A stretch of 50,803 nt of DNA from assembly GCA_018110785.1 (NCBI GenBank), contig JAGBHD010000001.1, forward strand, positions 1 to 50,803. Reading direction: 5' to 3'. Positions 48,835-50,491 of this stretch are shown piece after piece. Origin of the DNA: Oscillospiraceae bacterium. Lineage in GTDB: Bacteria > Bacillota > Clostridia > Oscillospirales > JAGBHD01. Below the pieces are notes generated by a model. The model was not told where the DNA came from, made no database searches, and saw nothing but the letters and a program-made list of their open reading frames with translations. The stretch's first letter is position 1. Each line of letters begins with the position of its first letter. A program made the position numbers and the translations under genes.

Positions 48835-49073
48835 TTATTTCGTATATTTATCCACTTCCGCTTTCAACATGCTCTTTTCTTATAAGCAATGCCTTTCATC
48901 GCCTTAACTTCATTTCCGTTTTGAGTTCTTGTATAGGTTAAGTTTTCGTACTTAGTAATTGAAATTTCATCTGGAAGCTTTGAAGTAAAAGCAGTATTTT
49001 CTTTCTCCATTTCGAGGAGATTTGAGATTATTTCTATTTTAGATATGTAAGCCTGCAAATCTATCTTTCGTAA
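48835..49073 (-). pseudogene. Remnant of a gene, probably from a mobile element
   Basis: An open stretch of about 64-70 codons on the - strand (48864-49073) begins right after a terminator without a ribosome binding site and ends TGA at 48864. Removing one base near 48875 lets the frame run on to 48835 with a plausible charged ending (MLKAEVDKYTK). The text contains a helical part (QAYISKIEIISNLLEMEKEN) and a Thr-rich strand (YENLTYTRTQNGNEVKAM). I do not recognise the family. The size, frameshift and lost 5' part indicate a decayed gene fragment. Confidence 0.45.
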
Positions 49074-49118
49074 TTATTTATTTTTAAAATAAAAAAAGCC
49101 CTTATGGGCGAAAAAATA

Positions 49119-49177
49119 GAAATAACCCCTTGACCGATGTTTCTTTACACATCTTTTTATGGTCAAGGGGTCATTTC
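49119..49177 (-). terminator. Long terminator hairpin of the orphan leader
   Basis: Seventeen-base arms at 49119-49135 and 49161-49177 pair with one mismatch, with an inner GATGT/ACATC pairing. T-rich sequence follows on the - strand. Confidence 0.75.
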
Positions 49178-49200
49178 TGATCACTCTTGATATCTAGCAT
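49171..49200 (-). CDS. Nine-residue leader peptide
   Basis: ATG CTA GAT ATC AAG AGT GAT CAG AAA TGA encodes MLDIKSDQK. GAGAGG lies 11 bases upstream, and the stop codon touches the first arm of the terminator. Translation would let a ribosome cover that arm. Confidence 0.4.
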   Translation of the reverse strand: MLDIKSDQK

Positions 49201-49454
49201 CTTTTTATTTACCTCTCTTTCTGCTGTCTTGTCGGTCTTCGTCTGCCAACTTCATTTCCAAACTTTAACACGCATTTCTTACAATAATCTCGTAAGCGAG
49301 ATAACCTCTATGTGTCGGAATTTTCTTCGAAGACCTTTTCTATTCCCTTTCTGTGATTATAATATATCATATTTAAACTAACTAATCAATTCGCAAAAAT
49401 ATATAAAGTTTTTATTTTCAAATTATGCATAATACAGAATTAAATTTTTTCATG

Positions 49455-49640: not shown

Positions 49641-50072
49641 ATGAATTATAAAGTTATAATTGATTCTGAATTAGAAGAAGATATTTTGGTTTATGCTAAT
49701 AAAAAGACAAAACTAATTAAGGATATCGAAGAACTTATCTTAAACGAAAGAATTGAATTAATCGGATTTAAAGAAAAAGAATCTATTGTTTTAAATTTAA
49801 GTGAAATTTATTGCTTTATAGTAGAAAATAATAAAATTTACGCTTCAACCATAGCAGATAAATTACAGCTTAAATATCGACTCTATCAATTAGAAGAAAA
49901 ACTCCCCGAAAATTTTATTAAGATAAATAAATCTTGTATCGCTAATATAAAATTAATAGAAAAATTTAACTCTTCTTTTTCAGGAACATTGGTAGTTAAA
50001 TTCAAAAACGGTTATACCGATTATGTTTCAAGAAGAAATTTAAAAAATATTAAAGAAAGGTTTGCTCTGTAA
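49641..50072 (+). CDS. LytTR-family DNA-binding regulator (stand-alone)
   Basis: A 143-residue transcription regulator with an N-terminal part (about 1-38) that lacks the receiver domain of two-component regulators, and a C-terminal LytTR domain (about 45-140). The domain is shown by LNLSEIYCFIVENNKIYAST, LEEKLPENFIKINKSCIANI and the basic end GYTDYVSRRNLKNIKE. LytTR domains bind DNA through a ten-strand fold. With the DUF3021 gene two bases downstream this is a LytTR regulatory system like HdrRM and BrsRM of Streptococcus mutans, in which the membrane partner restrains the regulator. It has its own promoter and a very strong ribosome binding site. Confidence 0.9.
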   Translation: MNYKVIIDSELEEDILVYANKKTKLIKDIEELILNERIELIGFKEKESIVLNLSEIYCFIVENNKIYASTIADKLQLKYRLYQLEEKLPENFIKINKSCIANIKLIEKFNSSFSGTLVVKFKNGYTDYVSRRNLKNIKERFAL

Positions 50073-50074
50073 TT

Positions 50075-50491
50075 ATGAATAAATATTTAAAAAGTTTTTT
50101 GATAAGAGGATTTGCTTTTAGCGGATTAGGTCCTGTTGTTTTAGGTATTGTTTATGCGGTGTTATCAAATACGCTAACAAATTTTAGTTTGAGTGGTGAA
50201 CAGGTTTGTTTAGGTATAATATCAACATATATTCTTGCTTTTCTACAAGCAGGTGCAACAATTTTTAATCAAATAGATGAATGGCCTGTTGCAAAATCTT
50301 TATTGTGTCATTTTTTAACTATATATATAGCCTATTTACTCTGTTATCTAATAAACACCTGGATACCTTTCGAGCCTATGATATTGCTTATATTTACAGT
50401 TATTTTCGTAGTATTGTATTTTGTAATATGGCTAGTTGTCTACATTTCCATAAAATCAATTAGTAAAAAAATAAACTCAAAACTATCCTAA
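50075..50491 (+). CDS. DUF3021 membrane protein, partner of the LytTR regulator
   Basis: A 138-residue protein with four membrane segments (about 10-32, 43-65, 75-95 and 100-125) and a lysine-rich C-terminal tail. The N-terminal FLIRGFAFSGLGPVVLGIVY and the DEWPVAKSLLCHFL segment fit DUF3021. In known pairs this membrane protein inhibits its LytTR partner, probably by holding it at the membrane until an unknown signal releases it. The start follows the LytTR stop by two bases. A strong terminator follows. Confidence 0.87.
   Translation: MNKYLKSFLIRGFAFSGLGPVVLGIVYAVLSNTLTNFSLSGEQVCLGIISTYILAFLQAGATIFNQIDEWPVAKSLLCHFLTIYIAYLLCYLINTWIPFEPMILLIFTVIFVVLYFVIWLVVYISIKSISKKINSKLS

Follow-up and report, generated by a model that had tools for sequence, protein, structure and literature searches.

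The window, by which we mean the whole 50,803-nucleotide stretch of DNA that was analysed (Oscillospiraceae bacterium, contig JAGBHD010000001.1), carries a compact element on its minus strand; the coordinates of its parts are given as window positions on that strand. It begins with a promoter region with conserved upstream boxes at 49347–49443, which is defined by a match to our promoter model R2 (E = 2.5e-12, with the window copy itself in the R2 alignment) and by a consensus of 40 copies. The hexamers read from the sequence are a −35 box TTGATT (49389–49384) and a −10 box TATATT (49366–49361), separated by a 17 nt spacer. At the predicted 5′ end of the RNA lies an SD1-like sequence, AGAAAGGG (49345–49352), recognised from the sequence and from comparison of homologues. 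This is followed by a middle hairpin, ATCTCG-CTTA-CGAGAT, at 49287–49302, whose arms (49302–49297 and 49292–49287) pair perfectly, and by the Shine-Dalgarno sequence of ORF2, AAAGAGAGGT (49211–49220), which was read from the sequence and is near-invariant in the A1 alignment. ORF2 itself (49171–49200) reads ATG CTA GAT ATC AAG AGT GAT CAG AAA TGA, giving MLDIKSDQK and a TGA stop, and shows coding-type substitutions over 65 copies.

The terminator, supported by folding and covariation, occupies 49118–49178 and consists of an 18 bp helix (arms 49178–49161 and 49135–49118; MFE −34.3 kcal/mol) enclosing an inner hairpin with the loop GUAAAGAA at 49148–49141. A second short terminator, GCCC/GGGC followed by a T-run, was read from the sequence at 49091–49109, and second hairpins of a similar kind can be seen by eye in several homologues. 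Inspection of the sequence thus confirmed the hairpin, ribosome-binding site, MLDIKSDQK ORF and two terminators described in an earlier sequence-only reading of this DNA, each in its place. That reading also had the ORF stop abutting the terminator; the stop codon in fact lies within the 18 bp helix, the 5′ edge of which falls within the last-but-one codon of ORF2. The genome contains one clear copy of the element. Of the intact genes that read in the same direction as the element, the closest is a family-2 glycosyltransferase ORF, which begins 475 nt past the ORF2 start. On the other side, a divergent gene pair encoding a LytTR regulator and a DUF3021 protein adjoins the element at 49641–50491, and such a pair is also found at one homologous locus (L020, positions 2073–2950).

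Homologues were sought with R1, a covariance model of the SD2–ORF2–terminator unit, at a cut-off of E ≤ 0.001. The window copy (49110–49226) matches it with E = 3.4e-16, being itself part of the R1 alignment. The order to which the window genome belongs yielded matches in 45 of 297 genomes and 29 of 146 genera. Each of these genomes has one to four matches, of which a few are the palindromic helix matched again on the reverse strand. In a sample of 398 genomes from the phylum, the same search found no convincing homologue beyond the window genome; two other genomes gave marginal matches, with E near 5e-4. BLASTN matches in 295 genomes of the order centre on the SD–ORF2–terminator part, and the resulting count of 55 genomes is no tally of the family, because some of the matches counted are short and fall in other parts. 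Scanned with a degenerate pattern, GTDB genomes gave at least 117 stretches, in metagenome-assembled genomes titled Oscillospiraceae, Ruminococcaceae, Clostridia and similar, while the degenerate pattern scan of IMG/VR found none. Among plasmids and phages, the one real relative that BLASTN gave is on a plasmid record of Vescimonas; the other matches are short and due to chance.

The window contains no Rfam 15 family at or above its gathering threshold (below threshold, the highest-scoring match is to a microRNA hairpin, with 27 of 90 bits), and the only Rfam matches in 14 loci bearing the element are tRNAs elsewhere in those loci. The peptide string MLDIKSEQK occurs in none of the papers searched. 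The proposal that this is a conserved and undescribed RNA element is therefore upheld by the absence of an Rfam match and by the compensatory changes among homologues: the family is apparently undescribed, and is spread across many gut Oscillospiraceae-type bacteria. The comparisons below use two sets, one of 131 copies, mostly obtained with a pattern that demands L-D-x-K, and one of 65 distinct hits of a covariance model whose training sequences were similar.

A promoter is found 5′ of most copies. Its conservation reaches about −75 and further, and comprises TTGNNN-17-TATATT-like hexamers and the upstream boxes (40-copy consensus); AGAAAGG is the predicted start of the RNA. In 59 of the 131 copies this start is associated with a start–stop mini-ORF of at most four codons (ORF1; for example MYR, MF or MI), and by the same criterion the remainder have none; the window copy, unlike about half of its homologues, lacks an ORF1 start codon. 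The promoter model also matches prophage recombination operons. At nine further loci, promoters of similar make-up (TTTGTGCAATAT...TTG...TATAAT) stand before a small gene of prophage type, akin to phrog_6244 / RecE-like C-termini; in some of them the AGAAAGGGGGAGG start is shared too. We rejected a phage-linked regulon as the meaning of these matches because others stand before a tRNA-like gene and a ribosomal-protein gene. The likely explanation is that strong promoters of this type are in general use in the order.

The conserved part of the family that follows the variable middle is organised as SD – M(L/I)(D/E)x – stop, with the stop codon within the terminator helix. The helix shows changes on both sides at 15 of 17 pairs and a covariation score of 0.605, against 0.252 for shuffled alignments. 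The score favours this structure, since a single member served to draw it; slid versions of it reach at most 0.175. A perfect helix of 8 bp or more opens with the stop codon's own base pairs in 119 of 128 copies, and each of the three stop codons is used (TGA 61, TAA 55, TAG 14). The position of the stop codon, in the A-rich arm opposite the U-tract, could be partly a by-product of terminator composition. In four copies, that at L020 among them, the stop codon is lost (for example to TGG or TGT), and the hairpin is still there.

The start of ORF2 changes in the manner of a coding sequence. Among the 65 hits, 61 could be aligned at the codon ahead of the acidic residue; 56 of these encode Leu there, by five different codons, and the change is synonymous in 13 of the 18 copies in which this codon differs. 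For the Asp/Glu codon, all 10 changes are at the third position. Simple binomial odds for these patterns are 9e-6 (Leu) and 2e-5 (Asp/Glu), figures that are overstated because the copies are related, although treated as independent, and because alignable cases were picked for having D or E at that place. The C-terminal half of the product varies freely and carries no export signal. Divergent products include MIEPNNEER, MLEPNNFIG, MEPTFAAE and the like; EP occurs early in 9 of the 65 copies, and as a rule there is a single early D or E.

The middle region is variable, the distance to ORF2 ranging from about 45 to 400 nt. A middle hairpin of the type CUCGCUUAAGAG is present with compensatory changes in about 28–31 of 131 copies. 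It shows changes on both sides at five of six pairs, and scores 0.367 against 0.193 for shuffled alignments; about half of the copies break its outermost and innermost pairs. Of five measures, the one based on further pair types is not above the shuffles. Folding a global alignment of the variable middle revealed no structure. Two copies have minimal forms with only about 45 nt from ORF1 to ORF2, and the middle domain is therefore missing in some lineages. The eight-base long-range pairing reported earlier does exist in the window copy (GGTCTTCG, 49335–49328, with CGAAGACC, 49241–49234), but the family does not conserve it. Taken alone it is close to chance level: when these 191 nt were shuffled 2000 times with dinucleotides preserved, an 8 bp pairing of this kind arose in 87 of the shuffles. 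Across the family, pairing between the 5′ end and the pre-SD2 region averages 6.27 bp, against 5.95 bp in swapped copies, and reaches at least 8 bp in 7 copies, against about 8 in this control. We therefore rejected 5′–3′ pairing as a family feature.

The element had been taken for a cis-acting leader RNA, probably a relic of a lost mobile-element operon whose downstream gene is degraded. The candidate for that gene, a 64-residue ORF at 48864–49058, has no match in Pfam, NCBIfam, plasmid records or 58 other genomes of the order, and we found no evidence in support of a relic. Nor is there a conserved downstream gene. Where a next ORF could be called (119 copies; crude ORF calls), it is co-directional in 54 and convergent in 65, which is near random, and among 461 flanking ORFs at 123 loci the most recurrent family occurs at only 7. 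With no recurring neighbour, and the next gene so often convergent, the element is a free-standing transcription unit rather than a cis leader or a relic.

At the level of sequence, these comparisons show that the unit is conserved and free-standing, and that helix and ORF alike bear signs of selection. The strong ribosome-binding site and the coding-type substitutions indicate that ORF2 is probably translated. We propose that the element belongs to a family of free-standing, promoter-driven small RNA genes, with a translated micro-ORF near the 3′ end and a 3′ end gated by its translation, and give this statement as a whole a probability of about 0.5. That it is a free-standing gene with a translated ORF2 is very likely; the translation-gated 3′ end is a tentative suggestion. 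A ribosome arriving at the ORF2 stop would cover the 5′ arm of the terminator helix, so that translation would weaken the first terminator and move the 3′ end to the second terminator or beyond, while an untranslated RNA would end at the first. The RNA would then report on, or be shaped by, ORF2 translation, and would act in trans. A still more speculative extension is a class of free-standing RNA genes whose own intrinsic terminator is gated by the translation of a nine-codon ORF, with the length or dose of the trans-acting RNA reporting translation. If the proposal is correct, gut and rumen bacteria of a widespread order have an RNA gene that standard annotation would overlook, in which micro-ORF and terminator make up a single overlapping, co-evolving unit. 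It would be a compact natural system in which a terminating ribosome meets an intrinsic terminator with no downstream gene at stake.

Two other readings, each improbable though less so than those considered after them, accept a free-standing gene. The nine-residue peptide could be the product, as a signal or regulatory peptide, with the RNA merely its mRNA. The coding-type conservation of M-(L/I)-(D/E)-x fits this, whereas the freely varying C-terminal half, the lack of an export signal or a conserved adjoining gene, and the untranslated middle, long and partly structured in many copies, do not. Equally, this could be an ordinary abundant RNA, whose ORFs load ribosomes for stability by protection at a 5′ SD, and whose terminator is not gated. 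The SD at the extreme 5′ end, the frequent start–stop ORF1, and the use of the same promoter type before tRNA-like and ribosomal-protein genes are all consistent with this; it leaves unexplained why the stop codon is placed in a covarying helix.

That placement is the layout of a leader-peptide attenuator. We nevertheless consider ribosome-dependent attenuation of the next gene in cis very improbable, in view of the orientation and non-recurrence of the neighbours and the absence of long-range pairing as a family feature. A mobile or repetitive sequence without function is just as hard to sustain: the distribution is patchy and some copies are paired, but there are only one to four copies per genome, the covariation and coding signals are strong, and IMG/VR has no pattern match.

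The preferred reading, of a small RNA gene with gated 3′ end, has its closest parallels among leader-peptide transcription attenuators of the trp and mgtL type, which likewise have a short ORF with an SD and a stop at or in the terminator hairpin. The RNA gene differs in having no conserved downstream gene, and no conserved antiterminator pairing was found on comparing the 5′ end with the pre-SD2 region. Dual-function small RNAs combine an RNA activity with an encoded small peptide, and resemble our family as free-standing transcripts with an intrinsic terminator and, here, a probably translated small ORF; in our case, however, ORF2 has only about nine codons and ends within the terminator helix. 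MgtL has an EPDP motif early in the peptide (PMC11282234), and some ORF2 variants similarly begin with EP. Unlike destabilising leaders of the MgtL type, ORF2 lacks repeated early acidic residues, and EttA/MgtL-type stalling is a weak lead. A survey of structured RNAs in human microbiomes lists 3161 candidates, and remarks on 99 that overlap possible small genes and on 230 terminator-like palindromes (PMC8040213). Like our family, these are covariation-supported RNAs in gut bacteria, and the family may be among them, unrecognised there.

At seven loci the RNA gene is present twice, the copies separated by anything from a few hundred bases to a few thousand, and the ORF2 and middle sequences of such pairs often differ. 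The terminator loop is GURAAGAA in 29 of 131 copies and GGUGAAAGA in 18. An apical loop of one or other kind (GUAAAGAA-like or GGUGAAAGA) thus caps changing stems in 47 of the 131 copies, and this recurrence suggests that the loop may be recognised by something.
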